DNA from: Caproicibacterium argilliputei
GTDB lineage: Bacteria > Bacillota > Clostridia > Oscillospirales > Acutalibacteraceae
Length of the DNA stretch: 64,000 nucleotides
NCBI RefSeq assembly: GCF_029211325.2
Contig: NZ_CP135996.1
Coordinates: forward strand, 2,232,001 to 2,296,000
Reading direction: 5' to 3'
Under the pieces are notes generated by a model, which was not told the origin of the DNA, did no database searches, and worked only from the letters and a program-made list of their open reading frames with translations. A program made the position numbers and the translations under genes. Below are positions 43,652 through 54,249 of this stretch, piece by piece (positions within the stretch are counted from its first letter, which is position 1; every line of letters begins with the position of its first letter).

Positions 43652-45262
43652 TTATGGACGTTCCGGCTTTCCAACGGTGATTTTACGGTACCTGCTGAAG
43701 CTCTGCGCGCAGCCAAGCTTCGCTTCGATGCCGTTTTCGTCAAGCAGGAGAACTGCTTCGTCATGGTTTCCAAAGCCTAAAAACACCCCTTTGCGAATTC
43801 TTGCAGTCATGCCGTCCGCTGCCAAATCGAAATCCGTCGGATAAGCAAACGCTTCCTGCTGCAGGGGCAGTTTCTCTCCCTTGCCGTATACAACCGGCTT
43901 TGCACGATAACGCAAAACGGTGTGCAGTTCTGCGTGATAGAAAAAGCGGTCAAATAAGTAAACCTGTATTTGTTTGGAGCCGTCACGCAGGAATACTCCT
44001 TCCCGCTGATTCTCCCCGATTTCTTCTACCACGCCGCAGGCAGAAGTCGCACAACTGACACGGTCAATGAGAATAAATGCGCCGGCTGTTCGATGTTTGC
44101 GGAATTCATCCAGCACGACCGGCTCGGAAAGCACCAGCTTGCAACGCGCAATTCCATTTTTAACAATGGTCTGTGCGGGCAGTTTTTTCCCGGTGTTCAC
44201 ATCGATTCGATAATCAATTTCTGTCACTGCAGCCGGCAGCATTTTGCTGCCCAGCTTTATCCACCAGGCGTTTCCGGGAACAAGCTCGCGGTCATCCATC
44301 CACAAAAGGGCCGCGGTAAATTCTTTCGCTGTTTTCAAATCCGCATTCCGCTCTAAAACGCAGCCGCGCGAGGCATCCACTTCGCGGTCAAGCTGCACCG
44401 TAACTGCCTGCCCCTGCTGTGCGCACTGCAGGTTCTGCTTTCCCGTCAAAATAGATTTTACCACTGCGGATTCGCCACTGGGCAGCACCGTCAAGGATTC
44501 CCCCACGGAAAGGGTTCCGCTTTCAACCTGCCCCTGCAAGCCGCGGAAGGTGTGGTCCGGCCGGCAGACCCGCTGCACCGGCATATAGAAGCCGCGTTCC
44601 GGTGTTCCCGACGAAACGTCCACGGTTTCCAAATGCTCCAGAAGCGTTTCGCCGCTGTACCACGGCATGGTCTCAGAGCGGCGCGTCACGTTGTCTCCTT
44701 CTGTCGCGGAAACCGGAATATAAACGGTATGAACCAGTTTCAGCTCCCCGCACAGTTTGTTGAGTTCCTGCACAATTTCCGCAAAACGGTTCTGGCTGTA
44801 CTGTACAAGATCCATTTTGTTAACCGCAAATACAAAATAGGAAATTCCCATCAGCGCACAGATACGCGCATGGCGCCGGGTCTGCGCCAAAACCCCCTGC
44901 GAAGCATCCACCAGAATGACCGCCAAGTCTGCAAAGGAGGCGCCCACCGCCATATTGCGTGTATACTCCTCATGACCGGGCGTATCCGCCACGATGAAGC
45001 TGCGACGCTCTGTTGTAAAGTAGCGGTAGGCTACATCAATGGTAATCCCCTGCTCTCGTTCCGCCATTAAGCCGTCCAGCAGCAGGGAATAATCAATCGC
45101 GCCGCCGCGGCTGCCGACCTGACTGTCCAGCAAAAGCGCCTGCTCCTGATCTGCGTACAGCAGCTTTGCATCATACAGGATATGACCAATCAGTGTGGAC
45201 TTGCCGTCGTCCACACTGCCGCAGGTGATAAATTTTAAAAGTCCGTTTTCCAAGTTATTCAT
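43652..45262 (-). CDS. cysN: sulfate adenylyltransferase, GTPase subunit
   Basis: A 536-residue translation-factor-like GTPase that, with CysD, makes adenosine 5'-phosphosulfate (APS) from sulfate and ATP. G1 GSVDDGKSTLIG, G3 DTPGHEEYTRNMA and G4 NKMDL are clear. The protein is somewhat longer than CysN of E. coli (about 475), with extra residues after position 430 but no CysC kinase P-loop. The TAATGA overlap with cysD shows coupled translation. Confidence 0.94.
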   Translation of the reverse strand: MNNLENGLLKFITCGSVDDGKSTLIGHILYDAKLLYADQEQALLLDSQVGSRGGAIDYSLLLDGLMAEREQGITIDVAYRYFTTERRSFIVADTPGHEEYTRNMAVGASFADLAVILVDASQGVLAQTRRHARICALMGISYFVFAVNKMDLVQYSQNRFAEIVQELNKLCGELKLVHTVYIPVSATEGDNVTRRSETMPWYSGETLLEHLETVDVSSGTPERGFYMPVQRVCRPDHTFRGLQGQVESGTLSVGESLTVLPSGESAVVKSILTGKQNLQCAQQGQAVTVQLDREVDASRGCVLERNADLKTAKEFTAALLWMDDRELVPGNAWWIKLGSKMLPAAVTEIDYRIDVNTGKKLPAQTIVKNGIARCKLVLSEPVVLDEFRKHRTAGAFILIDRVSCATSACGVVEEIGENQREGVFLRDGSKQIQVYLFDRFFYHAELHTVLRYRAKPVVYGKGEKLPLQQEAFAYPTDFDLAADGMTARIRKGVFLGFGNHDEAVLLLDENGIEAKLGCAQSFSRYRKITVGKPERP

Positions 45263-46158
45263 TAGAAATATCCCTCCCGCTTGCGCCGTTCCATACTGCC
45301 GTTTGCTTCTTTGTCAATCATCCGGCTGGTCCGCTCAGAAGTCACCGCTGAAAGTGTTTCGGCAATCACCTTATCCAGTGTATCCGCGTCCGATTCCATT
45401 CCGCCGGTCAGCGGGTAGCAGCCCAGCGTGCGAAAGCGCACCTTTTTCATCTGCGGCTTTTCGCCGGGCAGCAGCCGCATCCGGTCGTCATCCACCATAA
45501 TGATGGCTCCGTCACGGTACACAACCGGCCGCTCTGCCGCAAAATACAGGGGGACAATTTCGATATTTTCCCGCCGGATGTACTGCCAGATATCTTTTTC
45601 CGTCCAATTGGAAATAGGAAATACCCGCATACTCTCCCCTTTATGAAGCTGGGTGTTGTACAGCTTCCACATTTCGGGTCGCTGGTTTTTCGGGTCCCAA
45701 GCCTGATGCTCGTTACGAAAGGAAAAGATGCGCTCTTTTGCACGGGATTTTTCTTCGTCACGCCGCCCTCCGCCAAAAGCAGCCGTAAAGTGGTACTGTG
45801 TCAGCGCCTCTTTCAGCGCCTGTGTTTTCATGATGTCTGTATAAGCTGCACCGTAATCAAAGGGATTGACCCCTGCGGCGATAGCCTTTTCATTGCGGTG
45901 TACCAGCATTTGAATACCAAGCTCTTTGGCACGCCGGTCCCGAAACGCAATCATCTCATGAAACTTCCATCCCGTATCAATATGCAAAAACGGGAAAGGC
46001 GGTTTTTCGGGGTAAAAGGCTTTAAGGGCCAGGTGCAGCATCACAGAGGAATCCTTACCAATGGAATAGAGCATAACGGGACGCTCACACTCCGCCGCAA
46101 CCTCGCGAAAAATATAAATTGCCTCCGCTTCTAACTGATCCAAATGAGAAAGTGGCAC
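45262..46158 (-). CDS. cysD: sulfate adenylyltransferase, catalytic subunit
   Basis: A 298-residue member of the PP-loop ATP pyrophosphatase family. The loop is [11 protein letters not shown] near residue 33; the family-typical [20 protein letters not shown] lies near 245 and the C-terminus is RKREGYF. I choose the GTG at 46158, eight bases after AGGAG; a GTG three codons earlier (46167) leaves no room for the ribosome site. It makes APS with CysN and follows the ferredoxin-type gene aprB closely. Confidence 0.94.
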
Positions 46159-46169
46159 GGAAATCACTC

Positions 46170-46484
46170 CTAATATTGATTTGCATTGCGGCTGTCCACC
46201 ACAATGGTTTTTGTACTTCCGTCAGGCATAGACACCATCCAGTGAAGCCGGGTACCCTCTCTGCGGACGGTCATCTTTCCGCCCAGGCCGCCCATGTCTT
46301 CGCCCAGATACAGCGCCGCCGCCTGCGTGGGACATTCTTTGATGCAGCACGTGCAGCCCCAGCACCGCTCCGGATGCGGAAGGAACGCTTTGCCCGCCTC
46401 ATTCAGACGCAGCAGGCTTCCGGGGCACACCCTGCAGCACCGGCCGCATCCGATACAGCGTTTCTGGTTAATGGAAATGCTCAT
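46170..46484 (-). CDS. aprB: adenylylsulfate reductase beta-like 4Fe-4S ferredoxin
   Basis: A 104-residue iron-sulfur protein with two cluster-binding motifs, [13 protein letters not shown] near residues 10-22 and [12 protein letters not shown] near 41-52. The C-terminal half resembles the tail of AprB-type subunits. It would pass electrons to the flavoprotein AprA, which reduces APS to sulfite and AMP. It overlaps aprA by 17 bp and precedes cysD. The assignment rests on motifs plus neighbours; by itself it would be only a ferredoxin. Confidence 0.85.
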
Positions 46485-48147
46485 ATCTATCCTGCTCCTT
46501 CACCAGTGGTCTGAAAACCATCTCCAGCTTTCCGTTTTTCATGCGTGAATTCACATAAAGATCCCACGCAGGGTCTTGCTGCGGATAGTCCGTATACTCG
46601 GCAAAGCTGTGCCACCGCGTTTCGCGCCGCGCCCTTAAATGCGCAATCACGGCGCGGCAGAGCGTCAGGCGGTCCAGTAGTTCCAAAATATAAACGACCT
46701 CCTGCGGTTCGGCGGCTTTCAGCCCTTTTGCCCTCTGCTGCAGCTCGCCAATCCGCTTGTCTGCGGTTTGCAGGGACGCTTCCGAAAAGCGATACTGTGT
46801 TTGAATACCGCCGGCATATTCGTCCATCACTGCCTGCATGGCTTCCTCCAGCGCATCGGTTTCCGCTGATGCGCCGCGCGAATCAAACAAGGAGGCAATC
46901 CAGTCCTTTTTCGCCTGCACCTCCTGTGCGTCCGGCAAAACTTGCGGCTCGGTCAAAGAAGCCGCCGCCGCTTTTGCGGAAATTTCCCCCTCCGCAAAAG
47001 CACCCGTTACATATTTCTGCGGACATCCGCCTGCCACATCTCCCGCCGCGAACAGACCTCTTAAAGTGGTCTGCCGGTCGGTGTCCACCCAGTAACCGCT
47101 GGCGGTATGCCCGCCAACAATGTAAGGCTCCGTACCTTCAATTTCCACATTGCGCAAACGCGGCGTCTGCCCGCTTTCCAGCCAGCGCAGGGTCTGACCG
47201 GGTGCCATGTTCAGGTATGCTTTCTGCAGATCCAAATCCTGCTGTGCGGAAATTCCCTCCGTGCGCAGGCAGCAGGGGCCTCGTCCCGCAAGGTTTTCCT
47301 GCACCGTACCGTAAACCCGCTGGGAAGTGGTAAGCCCGTAGTGCTGCTCGTAAACTTCTCCAAGTGCATTGATCTGTTTAGCGCCCACGCCCTGTGCCAG
47401 TGTGCCGGTCGGAGCGATGGTATCCTTTACGCGCAGTGCAATAAAGCGCATTTCCAGCGTTGTCATTTCCGCACCGGCACGAATGCCCATGGCATACCCC
47501 GCGCCGGTATTAAACGGCGGGTACCACATTTTGTGTCGGGAAAATCCGGGATGGTTCGGTCGGTAAAGACCGGAAGCGCCGCCCGTAGCACACAGCACTG
47601 CTTTGGCAGACAGCACATACAAAACCGGCTCTTTGACTCCCACCGCATAGGCACCCCACACCCTGCCGTCTTTCACAATATAGTCAAACACATTGACCTC
47701 ATTGAGCACCGTAACCTGTGTTTGTGCCGCCACCGCCCGCGCCAAAAGGGGTTTGATGTTTTCCCCGTTTATTTTAATGTTGCGGGTACCGCGTGCCACA
47801 TACTTCCCGTTCCGGTCTTTGAGGATGGTCAGTCCGAGGGATTCCAGTGTGCTGACGGTGCGATTCAAACCCTCTGCCATGGTGCGCAGCAAATCCCCGC
47901 GTACAATTCCCTCCGCGTCCTGCCTTGCATAGTCAACGTAATCCTGCGGTGTCTTGCCCGCAGTGATATAAGCGTTCAATGCATTGACACCTGCCGCCAA
48001 ACAGCCGCTGCGCTGGATATTCGCTTTTTCCGCAAGAAGGACACGGCCTTTTGTATGCTTACAAAAGGTTAACGCGGCGTAGCATCCTGCCGCGCCGCCG
48101 CCCACAATTAAAAAGTCCGTATCCATCCATTTCACAGCCAAATCCAT
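46468..48147 (-). CDS. aprA: adenylylsulfate reductase alpha-like flavoprotein
   Basis: A 559-residue FAD enzyme of the fumarate-reductase/AprA family. The FAD-binding loop FLIVGGGAAGCYAAL is near residue 12, the CATGGASGLYRP segment near 185, and GLFAAGDVAGG near 365. In this setting (upstream of a two-cluster ferredoxin and cysDN) it is best read as an assimilatory APS reductase. A fumarate reductase is the alternative, but no membrane anchor or heme subunit gene is present. The ATG at 48147 follows AAGGTGATGAC. It is the first gene of the operon aprA-aprB-cysD-cysN. Confidence 0.85.
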   Translation of the reverse strand: MDLAVKWMDTDFLIVGGGAAGCYAALTFCKHTKGRVLLAEKANIQRSGCLAAGVNALNAYITAGKTPQDYVDYARQDAEGIVRGDLLRTMAEGLNRTVSTLESLGLTILKDRNGKYVARGTRNIKINGENIKPLLARAVAAQTQVTVLNEVNVFDYIVKDGRVWGAYAVGVKEPVLYVLSAKAVLCATGGASGLYRPNHPGFSRHKMWYPPFNTGAGYAMGIRAGAEMTTLEMRFIALRVKDTIAPTGTLAQGVGAKQINALGEVYEQHYGLTTSQRVYGTVQENLAGRGPCCLRTEGISAQQDLDLQKAYLNMAPGQTLRWLESGQTPRLRNVEIEGTEPYIVGGHTASGYWVDTDRQTTLRGLFAAGDVAGGCPQKYVTGAFAEGEISAKAAAASLTEPQVLPDAQEVQAKKDWIASLFDSRGASAETDALEEAMQAVMDEYAGGIQTQYRFSEASLQTADKRIGELQQRAKGLKAAEPQEVVYILELLDRLTLCRAVIAHLRARRETRWHSFAEYTDYPQQDPAWDLYVNSRMKNGKLEMVFRPLVKEQDRYEHFH

Positions 48148-48189
48148 GTCATCACCTTCTTTACATAGTAATCATATATGATATAGAAT

Positions 48190-48218
48190 ATTATAGACAC
48201 CGGCAGAGAAAAACACCA
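48190..48218 (-). promoter_or_regulatory. apr-cys operon promoter
   Basis: TATAAT (48195-48190, minus strand) with a poor -35 (TGGTGT, 48218-48213) at 17-bp spacing. A 12-bp perfect palindrome ATCATATATGAT (48171-48182) spans the predicted start point. Confidence 0.65.
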
Positions 48219-48229
48219 GCGAAATTTCC

Positions 48230-48241
48230 GCAAACGTTACA
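48230..48241 (-). promoter_or_regulatory. AACGTT-centred operator upstream of apr-cys
   Basis: GCAAACGTTACA, a near-palindrome with centre at 48235.5. The centre is 17.5 bp upstream of the -35 position of the aprA promoter. Confidence 0.6.
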
Positions 48242-48271
48242 CACACCTGTGCACACCTGCCAAAAAACAAC

Positions 48272-48283
48272 GCAAACGTTTTC
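48272..48283 (+). promoter_or_regulatory. AACGTT-centred operator upstream of the lacI-type gene
   Basis: GCAAACGTTTTC, matching GnAAACGTTTnC. The centre (48277.5) is 17.5 bp upstream of the regulator's own -35 and 42 bp from the other operator. Its exact inverse occurs upstream of sbp. Confidence 0.65.
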
Positions 48284-48294
48284 TGTATTTTCAC

Positions 48295-48324
48295 TTGAAG
48301 TCCTGCATGGGAAAGGCGTATGAT
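48295..48324 (+). promoter_or_regulatory. promoter of the lacI-type regulator
   Basis: TTGAAG (48295-48300), 18-bp spacer, TATGAT (48319-48324). TATGAT also forms the left arm of TATGAT-N4-ATCATA (48319-48334). Confidence 0.6.
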
Positions 48325-48396
48325 ATAAATCATATAAAACATATAAAATATATATACTTTGTAATCGCTGCACACCCATTGACAGGAGGGAGTCAC

Positions 48397-49446
48397 TTGA
48401 CACTGAAAGAAATCGCATCTTTGGCCGGCGTATCCGTTTCCACTGTTTCGCGAATTATCAATTCTCCTGACAACAGCTTCGCCCGCAAAGAAGTGCGCGA
48501 CCAGGTTTGGAAAATCATCAAGGAAACTGGCTACACACCCAACCTGCACGCCCGCGCCCTGAAGTGCGGAAAGCTTCCCGCCGTGTCTGCCCCCGCAGGC
48601 TCCATTGCCTGCATCTTGGGCAGAAGCGAATGTTTGGAGGAAAACCCTTTTTTCGAGCAGCTTGCCCGCACCATTGAGCAGCAGGCTCTGGCATACGGCT
48701 TCCCGGTACGGCTTTCCTACTCCCTGCTAGATGTGCAGGACTCCGTTCCTGAAAAAATCCGGCATACAAAAACGGACGGCGCCATCGTGCTCGGGCGATT
48801 CAGAAGCGACTCCATCCGATTTCTGGAGCACCAGTATAAAAACTTCGTCTACGTGGGGCGCAGCGCCATTCCCGTAAAGTGCGACCAGATTCTCTGTGAC
48901 GGCTACGAAGCCGCGCAGACCGCCATTGCCTACCTGCTGCACTGCGGGCATCGAAAAATCGGTTATATCGGTGAAACACATCACGAAGTTCGCTACTGCG
49001 CGTATTTGGATATGCTGCAGGAAAGCGGGCTGGAAGTTTCTCCCCAATGGATCTGCGACTGCCCACAAAACGCAGCGGGCGGTTATTTGGGTGCCAATCA
49101 GCTTTTAAAGCACGGGCACCTGCCGACTGCAGTCTTCTGCGCGGCGGATGTAACCGCCATCGCCGCTTTGCACCGCTTTGCAGCAGCAAAGATCAAAGTG
49201 CCGGAACAGCTTTCAATCATCAGCTTAGACAACATCGACCTTTCCGGCTATGCATCTCCGATGCTGACAACCGTCAGTATGCCCGCGTCGGAAATGGGGC
49301 GTCTGGCTGTGAAAACGCTGATTGACCGCATTGAAAAGAAGCACACGCTTCCACTGCGCACGTTTCTGCCAAGCAGCTTAATGATTCGAAAAAGCGTCGT
49401 TCAGCAGTGCTGCGACCCAATTTCGCAGAAAGAGGTTGTTGTCTGA
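48397..49446 (+). CDS. LacI-family transcription regulator of sulfate assimilation (predicted)
   Basis: A 349-residue LacI/GalR regulator. The helix-turn-helix LTLKEIASLAGVSVSTVSRI is at the N-terminus and is followed by the hinge helix near residue 48-58 (HARALK). The remainder is a sugar-binding-protein-like effector domain ending before residue 345. The start is TTG at 48397, with CAGGAGGGAG upstream. The gene lies between two sulfur operons, divergent from aprA and convergent with cysA. The three matching AACGTT palindromes at the three promoters make it the likely regulator. The operator position upstream of the -35 boxes suggests activation, unusual for this family. The effector is unknown. 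Confidence 0.85.
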   Translation: MTLKEIASLAGVSVSTVSRIINSPDNSFARKEVRDQVWKIIKETGYTPNLHARALKCGKLPAVSAPAGSIACILGRSECLEENPFFEQLARTIEQQALAYGFPVRLSYSLLDVQDSVPEKIRHTKTDGAIVLGRFRSDSIRFLEHQYKNFVYVGRSAIPVKCDQILCDGYEAAQTAIAYLLHCGHRKIGYIGETHHEVRYCAYLDMLQESGLEVSPQWICDCPQNAAGGYLGANQLLKHGHLPTAVFCAADVTAIAALHRFAAAKIKVPEQLSIISLDNIDLSGYASPMLTTVSMPASEMGRLAVKTLIDRIEKKHTLPLRTFLPSSLMIRKSVVQQCCDPISQKEVVV

Positions 49447-49481
49447 GCCGCCGGAAGCGAGAGGGGTGCCGTTTCGTTTTC

Positions 49482-49513
49482 AAAAAGTGCCAACGTCTCC
49501 TTGGCACTTTTTT
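49482..49513. terminator. bidirectional terminator between lacI-type gene and cysA
   Basis: AAAAAGTGCCAA pairs with TTGGCACTTTTTT around a seven-base loop, with T runs on both strands. It touches the cysA stop codon. Confidence 0.88.
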
Positions 49514-50570
49514 AAATGACGAAAGTCTGCTCCGTTTTTAAAGAGGTGTTTTCGACCAGCTGCACCTGCTGCTCATTATAAAGGTATAAGCGGTAAATCA
49601 GCACGCTGACAGTTTCCCCGACCGCGACTGTCTCATCTTCCAGCTGGCGATAAGCCGAAAAGCGGATTTCGCCCAGCTGGAGCCGCAGTTCCAACACACT
49701 TCCGCGGAAAAGCACTTCTTCGACCACAGCGTGCTCGGCGGCATTGGGATAAAGCTCCTGCTCCAGTTTGGTCACACGCACAAATTCCGGACGCAGCACC
49801 GCGTGCGCGTACTCCGGTACAGTGGCAAACCCATGCAGCTGTCCGTACTCGCAGAGGACAATTGGCTCGCCGATAAACCGGGCGGCAAACGGCGTGGCAG
49901 GATTCTTATAAATGTCAAGCGGTGTTCCCATCTGCTCAATCCTGCCTTGATTCATAATAATGATTTCATCCGCCACCTCAACCGCTTCTTCCTGATCGTG
50001 CGTCACAAAAATACTGGTGACGCCCACGCGATGGATGGTCTGCTTCAACCAAAGGCGCAGTTCTTTACGAACCTTCGCGTCAATGGCTGCAAACGGTTCA
50101 TCCAACAGCAGCAGCTGCGGATTGGGCGCCAGCGCACGGGCAAATGCGACCCGCTGGCACTGTCCGCCTGAAAGCTGATACGGCCGCCGGTTTTCCAAAC
50201 CCTCCAGACCAATTAAATGAATCAGTTCGTCAACCCGCTTTTTGATAAACGCTTTTTCCCGCTTCTGCACTTCCAGCCCAAACGCAATATTCTGATAAAC
50301 CGTCCTATACCGGAAAAGTGCGTAACTCTGAAACACAAAGCCGATGCCTCTTCCACCGGCGGGCAAGTCATTGACTTTTTTTCCGTGAATAAAAATGCTG
50401 CCGCTGTCCGGCGTTTCCAGTCCGGCAATCATCCGCAGGATCGTTGTCTTTCCACTGCCGGAAGGGCCCAGCAGCCCAACAAGCTCTCCCTTGGGAATTG
50501 AAAAGCTGACAGCATCCGCCGCCTGATAGGAACCGAATCTTTTGTTGATGTTTTTCAGCTCGACATCCAT
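49512..50570 (-). CDS. cysA: sulfate ABC transporter ATPase
   Basis: A 352-residue ATPase. Walker A is GPSGSGKTT, signature LSGGQCQRVAFARA, Walker B LLLLDEPFAAID, followed by a C-terminal TOBE-like regulatory region from about residue 240. The ATG at 50570 (MDVELKN) lies five bases after the cysW stop, with AGAGAGG upstream; a longer frame overlapping cysW is not supported. It is the last gene of sbp-cysT-cysW-cysA and energises sulfate or thiosulfate import. Confidence 0.92.
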   Translation of the reverse strand: MDVELKNINKRFGSYQAADAVSFSIPKGELVGLLGPSGSGKTTILRMIAGLETPDSGSIFIHGKKVNDLPAGGRGIGFVFQSYALFRYRTVYQNIAFGLEVQKREKAFIKKRVDELIHLIGLEGLENRRPYQLSGGQCQRVAFARALAPNPQLLLLDEPFAAIDAKVRKELRLWLKQTIHRVGVTSIFVTHDQEEAVEVADEIIIMNQGRIEQMGTPLDIYKNPATPFAARFIGEPIVLCEYGQLHGFATVPEYAHAVLRPEFVRVTKLEQELYPNAAEHAVVEEVLFRGSVLELRLQLGEIRFSAYRQLEDETVAVGETVSVLIYRLYLYNEQQVQLVENTSLKTEQTFVI

Positions 50571-50575
50571 ACTTA

Positions 50576-51385
50576 TTACCTCTCTTCTTTCTCCAAGCGA
50601 TATTCCACCAGGCTGCGCAAAACCAAAATCACGAACGCCATGCACATTAAAATGGTGGAAACCGCAAAGGCAGCGGACAGATGAAACGCATTGAACAGGG
50701 CCTCAATGTGCAGCGGCAATGTGTCGGTCTTTCCCTGCAGATGGCCCGACACCACCGACACCGCGCCAAACTCCCCCAAGCTGCGGGCTGTGCAGAGGAT
50801 TACTCCATACAACAGTGCCCATTTGATATGCGGCAGCGTAACCTTTCGGAATATGGTGAATCCCTTGGCACCCATCAGAGCCGCCGCCTCTTCCTCTTCA
50901 TGTCCGCGTGTCTGCATCACCGGTATCAGCTCCCTTGAAACAAACGGGAACGTCACAAAAACGGTGACCAGCACAATGCCCGGAACCGCAAACACCACCT
51001 GCACATTCCAATGATCCAGCAGCGGGTGCGCCCACCCGTTTCTCCCGAAGATCAAAAGGAACATCAGCCCAACAATGACCGGAGAAATCGAAAAGGGAAT
51101 ATCCATCAGCGCCGCCAGCACCTGCCGCCCGCGAAACCGGAAGTTTCCGACCGCCCACGCCGCAAACACGCCGAAAACGGTATTAACCGCCACGGCAATG
51201 GCCGTTGCCAGCAGCGTCAGACGAAGTGCTTTTTGTGCATACACATCCGTAACCGCCGCCCAAAACACGCGCCAGCCCTGACTCAGCGCATAGGTGCACA
51301 CCGTAATGAAAGGCAGCACCAGCATGACCGTTAAAAAAGCCGCGGCCACTGCAATCATGACCCATTTCACCACTTTTTGTTTCAT
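50576..51385 (-). CDS. cysW: sulfate ABC transporter permease CysW
   Basis: A 269-residue permease with six hydrophobic segments and the EAA loop EEEAAALMGAKGFTIFRKVT near residue 165, plus CTARSLGEFGAVSVVSGH, which is typical of CysW. It lies six bases after cysT and forms the membrane channel with it. Confidence 0.92.
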   Translation of the reverse strand: MKQKVVKWVMIAVAAAFLTVMLVLPFITVCTYALSQGWRVFWAAVTDVYAQKALRLTLLATAIAVAVNTVFGVFAAWAVGNFRFRGRQVLAALMDIPFSISPVIVGLMFLLIFGRNGWAHPLLDHWNVQVVFAVPGIVLVTVFVTFPFVSRELIPVMQTRGHEEEEAAALMGAKGFTIFRKVTLPHIKWALLYGVILCTARSLGEFGAVSVVSGHLQGKTDTLPLHIEALFNAFHLSAAFAVSTILMCMAFVILVLRSLVEYRLEKEER

Positions 51386-51391
51386 GTGTTT

Positions 51392-52231
51392 TTACCCCCT
51401 CGCGATTCGGCTGACCCGGGCTTGGATGAAGTTCATGCCGAGAAGAAGCAGAAATGCAAACAGAATCATGACCAGCGCAATCGAGGTTGCCCCCGCATCG
51501 TTAAACTGCTCCAGTTGATTCATAATCAGCAGCGGTACAGTCTGCGTCTGGTAAGGAATATTGCCCGCAATAAAAACAACGCTTCCGTACTCGCCCAGAC
51601 CACGGGAAAAAGCCAGACCAAAGCCGGTTAAAATGGCAGGCAGCAGTTCGGGCAGCAGAATCTTGAAAAAAATCCGTGTCCGGCTGGCCCCCATAGTCAA
51701 AGCCGCCTCCTCATACTGCGGATTCAGCTTTTCCAAAACCGGCTGAATGGAGCGAACAACAAAGGGCATCCCAATAAAAATCATCGCCATGGTGATACCG
51801 GCCGTGGTATAAGAAATCTTGATGCCAAACTGGCTGAGCCAGCTGCCAACCCACCCTTTTTCAGAATACATAGCCGTTAAAGAAATCCCCGCAACGGAAG
51901 TGGGCAGTGCGAAAGGAAGTTCTATCATTCCATTGAGCAGGCGGCAAAACGGAAACCGGTAGCGGGTAAACGCCCATGCCAGCAGCGTTCCCATAACCGC
52001 ATTCACAGCAGCCGCAGCCGCGGAGCAAGTCAGGCTTACCCGATACGCGGCGACTGTTTTTGCATCAGTAACCGCCTGCCAAAAAGCAGAAAAAGAGCAG
52101 CCGGAAAGATACACAACGATGGAAAATAGGGGAATCAATACAACCAGACTCAGCATGGAAACGGTAATCCCCATGGAAAGGCCGAATCCCGGAATCACCC
52201 GGTTTTGAGCTGCTTTTTTGAACGCTGGCAT
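51392..52231 (-). CDS. cysT: sulfate ABC transporter permease CysT
   Basis: A 279-residue permease with six hydrophobic segments, the EAA loop EEAALTMGASRTRIFFKILL near 185, and FSRGLGEYGSVVFIAGN, the CysT counterpart of the CysW motif. AGGAGG precedes the ATG. It follows sbp by 37 bp. Confidence 0.92.
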   Translation of the reverse strand: MPAFKKAAQNRVIPGFGLSMGITVSMLSLVVLIPLFSIVVYLSGCSFSAFWQAVTDAKTVAAYRVSLTCSAAAAAVNAVMGTLLAWAFTRYRFPFCRLLNGMIELPFALPTSVAGISLTAMYSEKGWVGSWLSQFGIKISYTTAGITMAMIFIGMPFVVRSIQPVLEKLNPQYEEAALTMGASRTRIFFKILLPELLPAILTGFGLAFSRGLGEYGSVVFIAGNIPYQTQTVPLLIMNQLEQFNDAGATSIALVMILFAFLLLLGMNFIQARVSRIARG

Positions 52232-52268
52232 GATTTTTCCTCCTCAAAATGATGGTTCGGCAGTGCGG

Positions 52269-53327
52269 TTACTTCTCATAAATTTGATCGAAGACAGCGC
52301 CATCCGCAAAGAATTTTTGATCTGCCTTGCTCCAGCCTCCGAACGCATCCGCAATGGTTACCAGCTGAACCTTTAAATCAAAGTTCCGGCGAAACTCCTG
52401 CAGGATCTTTTTGTTTGTCGGCCGATAGCCGTTTTGAGCTTCCAACCGCTGTGCTTCATCCGAATACAGATATTGCAGATACGCTTTTGCCACTTTCTCG
52501 GTGCCGTGCTTCTTGGCGTATGTATGCACAACCGCCACCGACGGCTGTGCCAAAATGCTGACAGACGGCGTCACCACTTCAAACGCGCCCGGATGCTCGC
52601 GCATGGCAAGGAAAGCCTCATTTTCCCAGGTCAGCAGAACATCCCCCTGTCCGTTTTCCACAAAGGTCGCAGCCGCCCCGCGGGAGCCGGAATCCAGCAC
52701 GGAAACGTTTCTGTACAAAGCTTTCATGAACGCCAGATCCTTGGATTCCTCTCCGCCGTACAGCCGGTCCGCATATGCCCAGGCAGCCAGAAAATTCCAC
52801 TTGGCTCCTCCTGAACTTTTCGGGTTCGGCGTAATGACCTGCCTGCCGGATTTGACCACGTCATTCCAGTCTTTGATGTTTTTGGGGTTTCCCTTACGAA
52901 CCAAAAACACAATGGTGGAGGTATAAGGCGCACTGTCACTGGGCAGCTGATGAATCCACCCATCCGCCGTCAAACCGGCTTTCTGCAGTTCATCCACGTC
53001 ACTTTCCAGCGCCAGCGTTACAACGTCTGCCTCATTCCCCGCCAGAACGGAGCGCGCCTGCTTTCCTGAACCGCCGTGTGACTGGGTAACCTCCACGTTT
53101 TGCCCTGTCTTTTTCGCCCAGTAGGTTTGGAACAGCGCATTGTACTCTTCATAAAATTCTCGTGTCGCATCGTAAGAAACATTCACGATGGAAACCGCTG
53201 CGGAACCGCTTAAGGATGCCTGCTGCGCGCGGCTGCCGCAGCCGGCAAAAAGGTTCAGCAGTCCTGCCGCCAACAGCCCGCACGCAATGGTTCTGGTATG
53301 GAGCAGCTTTCGATTGCCCACGGTCAA
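52269..53327 (-). CDS. sbp: sulfate-binding lipoprotein
   Basis: A 352-residue sulfate/thiosulfate-binding protein. A signal peptide ends in the lipobox FAGC (Cys near residue 30), followed by VNVSYDATREFYEEYNALF and QSHGGSGKQARSV, the anion-binding elements of Sbp/CysP, and later NPKSSGGAKW. The frame starts at TTG 53327; the GTG at 53321 has better spacing to the GGGGGG run and may be the true start. It is the first gene of the sulfate import operon. A perfect GAAACGTTTC palindrome lies inside the gene at 52702-52711 and could be an auxiliary operator. Confidence 0.92.
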   Translation of the reverse strand: MTVGNRKLLHTRTIACGLLAAGLLNLFAGCGSRAQQASLSGSAAVSIVNVSYDATREFYEEYNALFQTYWAKKTGQNVEVTQSHGGSGKQARSVLAGNEADVVTLALESDVDELQKAGLTADGWIHQLPSDSAPYTSTIVFLVRKGNPKNIKDWNDVVKSGRQVITPNPKSSGGAKWNFLAAWAYADRLYGGEESKDLAFMKALYRNVSVLDSGSRGAAATFVENGQGDVLLTWENEAFLAMREHPGAFEVVTPSVSILAQPSVAVVHTYAKKHGTEKVAKAYLQYLYSDEAQRLEAQNGYRPTNKKILQEFRRNFDLKVQLVTIADAFGGWSKADQKFFADGAVFDQIYEK

Positions 53328-53434
53328 ATCCCCCCAGTGTCACTTTTTCTGCACAAGGCGTTTCTCCTAAACCGTTTCAGTCGGAACGCCAGCCAATTTA
53401 ATCATATATGTTATATAAGACTTATATGAAATAT

Positions 53435-53463
53435 AGTATATGTTTTCAGACAACACTTTGCAA
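53435..53463 (-). promoter_or_regulatory. promoter of the sbp-cysTWA operon
   Basis: Minus-strand TTGCAA (53463-53458) and TATACT (53440-53435) with 17 bp between. The leader to sbp is about 100 nt and very AT-rich near its start. Confidence 0.75.
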
Positions 53464-53474
53464 TTGAAAATTAG

Positions 53475-53486
53475 GAAAACGTTTGC
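53475..53486 (-). promoter_or_regulatory. AACGTT-centred operator upstream of sbp
   Basis: On the minus strand GCAAACGTTTTC, identical to the site at 48272-48283. Its centre is 17.5 bp upstream of the -35 hexamer, as at the other two promoters. Confidence 0.65.
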
Positions 53487-53541
53487 TGTCTGCAAAAGTG
53501 TGCTCCTTCCGTGCTAGGAGCATCCGGCACTCGTTTATACC

Positions 53542-53582: not shown

Positions 53583-53661
53583 ATTTGCAATCTGAATTGT
53601 CCTGCAAGCAATACGGCTGTGCTATTCTGCACTCCCTTTTCCTGTTTACCGGCGGCAGCTG

Positions 53662-53703
53662 TTGACAACATACACTTTCTTATCATTACATATGTTATAT
53701 AAC
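53662..53703 (+). promoter_or_regulatory. promoter and palindrome before the tetR pseudogene
   Basis: TTGACA at 53662-53667, with weak -10 candidates around 53686-53696, and a GTTATATAAC palindrome (53694-53703) where a TetR-type repressor would act on its own gene. The signals outlive the gene. Confidence 0.5.
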
Positions 53704-53731
53704 TGTTGTAATAATAGAAAGGAGGGTCCTT

Positions 53732-54249
53732 ATGCCCAAACTAAAAATCAATGCCAGAAACATTGCTAAAAGAATGAATTGTTCGGTACAACCGATTTAC
53801 AGCTGCTTCGGCAGTATGCAAGGATTGACGCAGCAGTTGTTTTTGCATGGGAAAAGTATCTTGACCGCTATGTGGATGCCCATGCAGACCGAAGGAAATA
53901 CTTTGCGTCCATCGAGAACTGCCATATCAGCTTTGCGCGGGACGAAAAGTTTTTGTTTTGCTTCCTTTTCCAATCTCCTTACCTCAAAGCCAGCAGTATC
54001 GAAGACTTCTACCGGATGTATGCAAGAACAGACGTTACACAGGATATCTCAGCGACACTCGGCCTTTCCACATCGGATGCAGAAAAACTGTATACCCATA
54101 TGATGCTCTACACCCATGGCATTGCCTGCATAATTGCGGCAGATGCTGTATATTTTTCTCGTGAAATTGTTTCCGCGAAAATCCAATTTGCATATGCATC
54201 TTTTCTGCAAAGAATCAAGGAGGGAAACCATGCGACTACTTGTTCATGA
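53732..54249 (+). pseudogene. TetR/AcrR-family regulator, truncated and frameshifted
   Basis: The first frame (from ATG 53732, after GAAAGGAGGG) encodes NARNIAKRMNCSVQPIYSCF, the recognition part of a TetR helix-turn-helix, but the usual preceding helices are missing. Near 53840 the similarity moves to a second frame (AVVFAWEKYLDRYVDAH onward), which carries the ligand domain to the stop at 54249. A frameshift plus a shortened N-terminus indicates a decayed gene. The adjoining reductase relic suggests the pair was once a regulator with its target. Confidence 0.75.

Follow-up and report, generated by a model that had tools for sequence, protein, structure and literature searches.

A probable LacI-type regulator of sulfate acquisition in Caproicibacterium argilliputei and other Firmicutes

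The regulation of sulfur metabolism in Clostridia was described in a 2010 paper as little known compared with that in other Firmicutes (PMC2940859), and a 64,000-nucleotide stretch of the genome of Caproicibacterium argilliputei (contig NZ_CP135996.1, positions 2,232,001 to 2,296,000; the whole stretch is referred to as the window) raises the question of what a LacI-family protein, of a kind that usually controls sugar genes, is doing between two operons for sulfate use. The gene order is aprA-aprB-cysD-cysN on the minus strand (43652-48147), the lacI-type gene on the plus strand (48397-49446), and cysA-cysW-cysT-sbp on the minus strand (49512-53327). The answer that we consider likely is that this protein controls sulfate acquisition as a pathway-specific regulator, and most likely as an activator that works from an operator about 53 bp upstream of the transcription start.

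Operators and their spacing in the window and the core clade

The preliminary description of this DNA placed three AACGTT-centred sites (48230-48241, 48272-48283, and 53475-53486) before the apr-cys operon, the regulator gene, and the sbp-cysTWA operon, respectively. All three are present at those coordinates, and two of them (48272-48283 on the plus strand and 53475-53486 on the minus strand) are, as it reported, the identical 12-mer GCAAACGTTTTC. Its claim of identical placement also holds when measured on the sequence, in that the operator centre precedes the first base of the -35 box by 17.5 bp in the apr promoter (centre 48235.5, first base 48218, spacer 17 bp), the lacI promoter (48277.5, 48295, 18 bp), and the sbp promoter (53480.5, 53463, 17 bp). 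Within two mismatches, GCAAACGTTTTC occurs 14 times in the window versus 11.6 expected, which is not above chance, and hence sequence similarity alone would not carry the operator claim; AAACGTTT occurs five times versus 2.25 expected.

Relatives of the regulator allow the sites to be compared between genomes. Searching with the protein sequence yielded 201 relatives (E ≤ 1e-40), and the named sources among the best 120, which were listed, include Faecalispora, Caproiciproducens, Anaerocolumna, Lacrimispora, Paenibacillus, and Saccharibacillus. From a profile scan of genome contigs, 80 of 221 relative loci were kept, of which a core set was defined as the window together with L042-L069 and L101 (30 loci, 29 of them fetched), while L099, where the regulator is cut by a contig end beside sulfate transport genes, was left out of the core counts. 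A position weight matrix (PWM) from promoter regions converged on ACGCAAWCGWTTNM and the best site was above threshold in 63 of 72 regions, although this presence is partly circular because six 14-mers picked from already inspected loci served as the seed of the matrix and the promoters being scored were also those used for training; the -10 spacing did not enter the matrix. The central C is found in 63 of 63 sites and the central G in 61, and the conserved arm is ACGC, with C in 58 of 63 sites at the position where the catabolite-responsive element (cre) has T. Most loci that seem to have no site under an AACGTT-only search carry one whose centre has A/T variants, as in ACGCAATCGTT and ACGCAAACGATT; AACGTT alone was rejected as a search pattern because it misses these.

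The distance to the promoter is kept together with the motif. In regions with a strong site (score above 14), which are 21 of 25 for apr/cysD, 13 of 17 for sbp, and 24 of 30 for lacI, those below being excluded from the denominators, the -10 hexamer starts 39-42 nt from the operator centre in 20 of 21 apr/cysD, 12 of 13 sbp, and 15 of 24 lacI cases, or in 14 of 15, 9 of 10, and 12 of 16, respectively, when counted by clusters of 75% identity. Over all site-and-direction rows of the 30 core loci, where an operator between divergent genes is counted once in each direction, a -10 matching at least 5 of 6 bases lies at 39-42 nt in 47 of 70, versus a mean of 3.9 and a maximum of 9 in 200 shuffles. 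The motif is therefore conserved before orthologous sulfur genes, a point on which the preliminary description had made its proposal depend, and conserved at the same distance. Such an operator at a fixed distance upstream of the -35 box is the arrangement of an upstream-site activator such as CcpA at ackA, and it is found as well in relatives of the regulator that are not linked to sulfur genes (see below).

In the genome of C. argilliputei itself there is no sign of a wider regulon, as the pattern VSGCAAWCGWTDNM gave 19 matches versus 16 for a backward control, in a scan that is not exhaustive since the window's sbp site itself escapes the pattern. Among these matches and the eight places of GNAAACGTTTNC in the genome, two of which adjoin other LacI genes, a -10 (at least 5 of 6) at 39-42 nt is found only at the three sites in the window; at an intergenic palindrome at genome position 746496 the -10 match is 4 of 6. 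Because motif and spacing are combined only at the window sites among the places found, the regulon looks local in this genome within the limits of that scan.

A second, AT-rich element lies downstream of the -10 at 48160-48181 and 53400-53419 and in core loci. The octamers CATANTAA/TTANTATG are present downstream of the -10 in 19 of 47 core promoters (shuffled mean 1.0, maximum 5) and in 1 of 15 upstream regions from regulator-less loci, and this element may be the site of a second regulator; the genome has six Rrf2 matches above cut-off, whose link to the element is only conjectural. In six Paenibacillaceae loci (L044-L048 and L062), repeated GCAAA half-sites such as TTTGCGCAAA lie downstream of the operator, toward the regulator gene.

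The regulator, its relatives, and their neighbouring genes

The regulator combines a LacI helix-turn-helix domain (PF00356, 56 bits) with a periplasmic-binding-protein-like effector domain (PF13377, 120 bits), as expected of the LacI/GalR family, and its predicted structure (mean predicted local distance difference test score 87.6) matches PurR, CcpA, and LacI. Leu55, which we take to be the hinge-helix leucine, is invariant in 32 sequences, so that the family's pairing of this leucine with a CG-centred palindromic operator is also present. No other LacI-family match occurs in the window, in agreement with the preliminary description, although the whole genome has 13 (two of them pieces of one broken gene).

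In a quick tree search the core regulators, together with that of L174 (equal to the L068 regulator), form one clade with a Shimodaira-Hasegawa-like approximate likelihood ratio test (SH-aLRT) value of 100. Paenibacillaceae, Lachnospiraceae, Oscillospiraceae, and others are intermixed within it, which suggests that the regulator has been transferred between lineages. The best-scoring fetched locus, L042, encodes a 67% identical regulator and has the gene order of the window. As judged by tblastn with the window proteins, apr, cysDN, or sbp-cysTWA lies beside the regulator in 27 of the 29 fetched core loci, and L058 starts inside an aprA, recognized by visual inspection of the translation, and an operator precedes this cut gene. 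Hence the neighbours are sulfate genes in 28 of 29 loci and sulfonate-import and isethionate-lyase-like genes in the remaining one, L066, such that all 29 fetched core loci are linked to sulfur acquisition, the genomic linkage expected of a regulator of sulfate assimilation.

In L066 (L066:2045-8648, a Family XIII metagenome-assembled genome), the regulator orthologue is accompanied by a sulfonate importer, an isethionate-lyase-like enzyme, and its likely activase. The importer includes an SsuA-family sulfonate ATP-binding cassette (ABC) binding protein (192 bits, cut-off 163.5), and the best solved relatives of the glycyl-radical enzyme are 5ymr, 7kq3 (isethionate sulfite-lyase), and 6lon (all E = 0). 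A perfect palindromic operator, GCGCAAACGTTTGCGC, lies before the transporter with two divergent promoters, 28 and 38 nt from their -35 boxes. These distances are 17 + 11 and 17 + 21, or one and two helical turns further out (by eye), and the operator is in helical phase with both -35 boxes.

Co-occurrence of regulator and operator, which the preliminary description had proposed as a check, is also found, albeit in small numbers. A CysD match at E ≤ 1e-60 is present in 17 of 391 clostridial genomes, 16 besides this one, and a regulator of this kind lies beside sulfate genes in 3 of the 16, one of which has a core regulator. Operators are present in all three (in G349 at the sbp-regulator locus and not at the separate cysD locus), while in the 13 cysD genomes without the regulator there is no operator between genes in the 14-19.5 kb around cysD, with one match inside cysW (L163). 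The contrast of 3/3 versus 0/13 has an exact p of 0.0018.

Two related groups lie outside the core. The non-sulfur relatives (L070-L103 without L099 and L101, 32 loci) are 36-44% identical to the window protein, have a similar operator, are not one clade in the tree, and have no apr, cysD, or sbp match nearby by tblastn. Their neighbours, of which Pfam assignments were taken for ten, include by tblastn phosphofructokinase in 22 of 32 loci and an NMT1-type binding protein (ABC genes) in 15 of 32. One of them, L096, adjoins a sulfatase. Of 52 directions, 17 have the -10 at 39 nt from the operator centre, 5 at 40 nt, and 9 at 25 nt. Accordingly, we rejected the view that only the sulfur branch has a fixed spacing, and an apparent overlap of their operator with the -35, as in a repressor, proved to be partly an artefact of scoring operator letters as -35, the -10 counts showing 39 and 25 nt. 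Since these relatives share the spacing, its geometry is probably older than the sulfur role. A LacI-type regulon for sulfate assimilation, as first proposed, is therefore supported by neighbours, motif, spacing, and co-occurrence, but the spacing is not unique to sulfur genes. In the second group, a distant clade (L104-L121), sbp-cysTWA lies beside the regulator in 12 of 18 loci, and 6 of 10 scanned intergenic sites are 17 nt before a -35.

Residue 155 separates the two sulfur-linked clades from the non-sulfur relatives. Arg occupies it in all 30 core proteins and in all 19 of the distant clade (14 of these beside sbp) and in none of 33 non-sulfur relatives, where it is Leu, Ile, or Val in all 33 (L010 and L175 added, L098 left out), and it is the only position flagged under the thresholds used. 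Arg155 aligns with PurR Trp147, a position that presumably lies at the effector pocket, and at most suggests an anionic ligand for the regulator. The two sulfur-linked clades may have Arg155 in common by descent.

Activation weighed against repression

From the observed gene and sites, and from the conservation, spacing, and co-occurrence of the latter, we infer the following scheme. The regulator would bind PurR-box-like operators, ACGCAAWCGWTTNM, before aprAB-cysDN, sbp-cysTWA, and, in this genome, its own gene, bound to one fixed helical face and centred some 53 bp ahead of the start site. There it would most likely contact RNA polymerase and raise transcription from promoters in which a good -10 is paired with a poor -35, in the manner of CcpA at ackA-type promoters. 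A small sulfur metabolite, probably an anion such as adenylylsulfate (APS), sulfite, an O-acylserine, or sulfate, would tune the regulator through the Arg155 pocket.

The weak apr -35 box, given as the main uncertainty in the preliminary description, is of less concern now that TGG is found at the same fixed offset in 14 of 20 apr/cysD promoters, and the sbp -35 starts with TTG in 12 of 12. In a promoter search blind to the operator, a perfect TTGACA was found in 4 of 8 sbp regions without the regulator versus 0 of 17 core sbp and 0 of 22 core apr/cysD regions, and the best-promoter scores of core and regulator-less regions differ with a one-sided p of 0.018 (sbp) and 0.025 (apr/cysD), uncorrected for kinship. 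At ackA, pta, and ilvB, CcpA activates from upstream of the -35, and its general rule is that sites so placed activate in a helix-face-dependent manner, the lev operon being the stated exception (PMC3463425). It is these poor core -35 boxes, taken with the CcpA rule, that favour activation. The step from upstream sites at weak or moderate -35 boxes to activation was thus probably correct, while the accompanying remark that this is unusual for LacI proteins has a counterexample in CcpA (PMC3463425).

Several observations weigh against this reading. The contrast in promoter strength is modest and the blind search picked a promoter without the operator spacing in 9 of 22 apr/cysD regions, while the -35 boxes in L066 are good (TTGACG and TTGACT). 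Contact repression of the GalR type also requires a fixed upstream position, and the related non-sulfur LacI proteins have nearly the same spacing. The distant sulfur-linked clade may in fact repress, as four of its six -35 boxes at 17 nt read TTGACA and a second operator is often near the start codon. No strong site was found in 6 of 30 lacI, 4 of 25 apr/cysD, and 4 of 17 sbp regions, several of these genes being within longer operons. Spacing at the regulator's own promoter is less regular (15 of 24), but in seven of the nine misses (six Paenibacillaceae loci and L049) there is one operator only, and its spacing suits the divergent cysD or apr promoter, indicating that the target that is kept is the sulfate gene and not autoregulation. 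In the co-occurrence contrast, only the G208 regulator is core (identical in the tree to that of L068), those of G511 and G349 being of the distant clade; the 13 negatives were scanned only around cysD, with sbp not seen in every stretch; and in 4 of the 13 CysD is at most 50% identical, which with the nine closer ones leaves 3/3 versus 0/9.

Could the same protein be a repressor, acting from the upstream operator by GalR-like contact or by looping between paired operators and relieved by sulfur starvation? Most characterized LacI proteins repress, two operators lie 42 bp apart in the window's apr-lacI gap, and looping is suggested by 10 loci of the distant clade, where sbp is preceded by a pair of AACGTT sites separated by 101-113 bp, one site of the pair being near the start codon in several. 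Repression is nevertheless rather unlikely in the core clade, where several loci (the six Paenibacillaceae cysD loci, L050, L051, and L053) have a single operator, the operators do not overlap the -35 or -10, and most -35 boxes are poor. At lev, CcpA does repress through a cre located upstream, where it blocks the activator LevR, but its general rule for sites upstream of the -35 is activation (PMC3463425).

Far less probable is that the sites are cre boxes or operators of CcpA or of another of the 12 other LacI-family matches, with the neighbouring regulator uninvolved. The cre is also a CG-centred near-palindrome, consensus WTGNNARCGNWWWCAW (PMC3463425), and the genome has 12 other LacI-family matches that might serve, but the conserved ACGC arm has C where cre has T, and the sites accompany the regulator, in that the 13 cysD loci that lack it have none in their intergenic regions even though 10 of these 13 genomes have other LacI proteins (E ≤ 1e-30). 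The motif arm and the co-occurrence led us to discard this reading. A merely fortuitous resemblance among AT-rich promoters, in line with the lack of enrichment of GCAAACGTTTTC in the window, has a negligible probability and is already refuted by a spacing that recurs over the core loci far beyond shuffles. A pathway-specific LacI-type regulator, most likely an activator, thus remains the preferred explanation. Tentatively, it may be one branch of a larger group of LacI-type activators with the operator fixed near -53, in which a single effector-pocket change, to Arg155, would have accompanied a switch of targets, from genes of the sugar-phosphate type to those for acquiring inorganic and organic sulfur, with an anionic sulfur metabolite (such as APS or sulfite) as effector, the regulator then spreading with its target genes between Clostridia and Paenibacillaceae.

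Features of the window and comparison with known systems

Sulfate adenylyltransferase, the adenylylsulfate reductase alpha subunit, and the sulfate ABC transporter proteins all score above curated cut-offs (Table 1). The aprB-like assignment, which is below its NCBIfam cut-off, is based on Fe-S domains and synteny. The TTG start of the regulator gene was read from the sequence and is supported by orthologues that start MTLKEIA or similar. Beyond sbp, at 53660-54249, overlapping short open reading frames (ORFs) behind a TTGACA promoter that contains CATATGTTATATAAC resemble a broken TetR-type gene in two frames (by eye); the part tested, 53779-54249, has no Pfam match.

Table 1. Coordinates in the window of the regulator, the sulfate genes, and the putative operators and promoter elements.
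Feature	Position	Strand	Details
Operator, apr-cys promoter	48228..48241	-	reads CCGCAAACGTTACA on the plus strand; PWM score 18.3
Operator, regulator's own promoter	48270..48283	+	ACGCAAACGTTTTC; PWM score 23.2
Operator, sbp-cysTWA promoter	53475..53488	-	CAGCAAACGTTTTC on the minus strand; PWM score 15.6
apr -35	48213..48218	-	TGGTGT, weak
apr -10	48190..48195	-	TATAAT
Regulator -35	48295..48300	+	TTGAAG
Regulator -10	48319..48324	+	TATGAT
sbp -35	53458..53463	-	TTGCAA
sbp -10	53435..53440	-	TATACT
LacI-family regulator gene	48397..49446	+	349 amino acids; TTG start after AGGAGGG; Pfam LacI HTH (helix-turn-helix), Peripla_BP_3, Peripla_BP_1
aprA, adenylylsulfate reductase alpha subunit	46468..48147	-	NCBIfam NF005331, 863 bits, cut-off 557
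aprB-like 4Fe-4S subunit	46170..46484	-	Pfam Fer4 families; best NCBIfam match aprB, 54 bits, below cut-off 136
cysD, sulfate adenylyltransferase small subunit	45262..46167	-	NF009214, 517 bits, cut-off 413
cysN, sulfate adenylyltransferase large subunit	43652..45262	-	TIGR02034, 532 bits, cut-off 336
sbp, sulfate-binding protein	52269..53327	-	NF008022, 432 bits, cut-off 288
cysT, sulfate permease	51392..52231	-	TIGR02139, 353 bits, cut-off 246
cysW, sulfate permease	50576..51385	-	TIGR02140, 347 bits, cut-off 329
cysA, sulfate ABC ATPase	49512..50645	-	TIGR00968, 345.3 bits, cut-off 342.75; listed ORF, true start may be further in

The regulator is thus probably a widespread LacI-type activator of sulfate genes, for which no published description was found in the open literature searched. 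If so, it would widen what the LacI family senses and how it works, and the operator with its fixed spacing would provide a simple rule by which sulfur genes could be located in Firmicutes of gut and soil, a rule that perhaps extends to pathways that release sulfite from sulfonates. At the level of listings and abstracts, the open-licence literature yielded no LacI-type regulator of sulfate or sulfonate. The nearest match concerns LsrR, which we take to lie outside the LacI family. It deals with this protein and the assimilation of sulfate in E. coli (PMC13393413), and a word search of the main text of a paper on LacI regulons (PMC4052901) found no word starting with "sulf".

The systems described for sulfur and cysteine genes in Firmicutes are CymR, CysL, YtlI, CmbR, CysR, and Cys T-boxes, of which CymR is a repressor of the Rrf2 family and the others are LysR-type proteins or RNA elements; none is given as LacI-family, and the word LacI is absent from the main text of that account (PMC2940859). 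Among LacI-family proteins, the closest solved relative is PurR of Escherichia coli, with 25% identity in the structural alignment and a box that is nearly the same as ACGCAAWCGWTTNM. However, the window protein scores 162 bits against the PurR equivalog NF007979 (cut-off 501), and PurR represses purine genes whereas the neighbours here are sulfate genes. CcpA of Bacillus shares LacI-family membership and, if activation is correct here, the helix-face-dependent activation from upstream of the -35 that is known at ackA, pta, and ilvB, but it differs in being a global carbon regulator that acts with HPr-Ser-P and in a cre consensus that lacks the ACGC arm (PMC3463425), and the window protein scores 116 bits against the CcpA equivalog TIGR01481 (cut-off 442).

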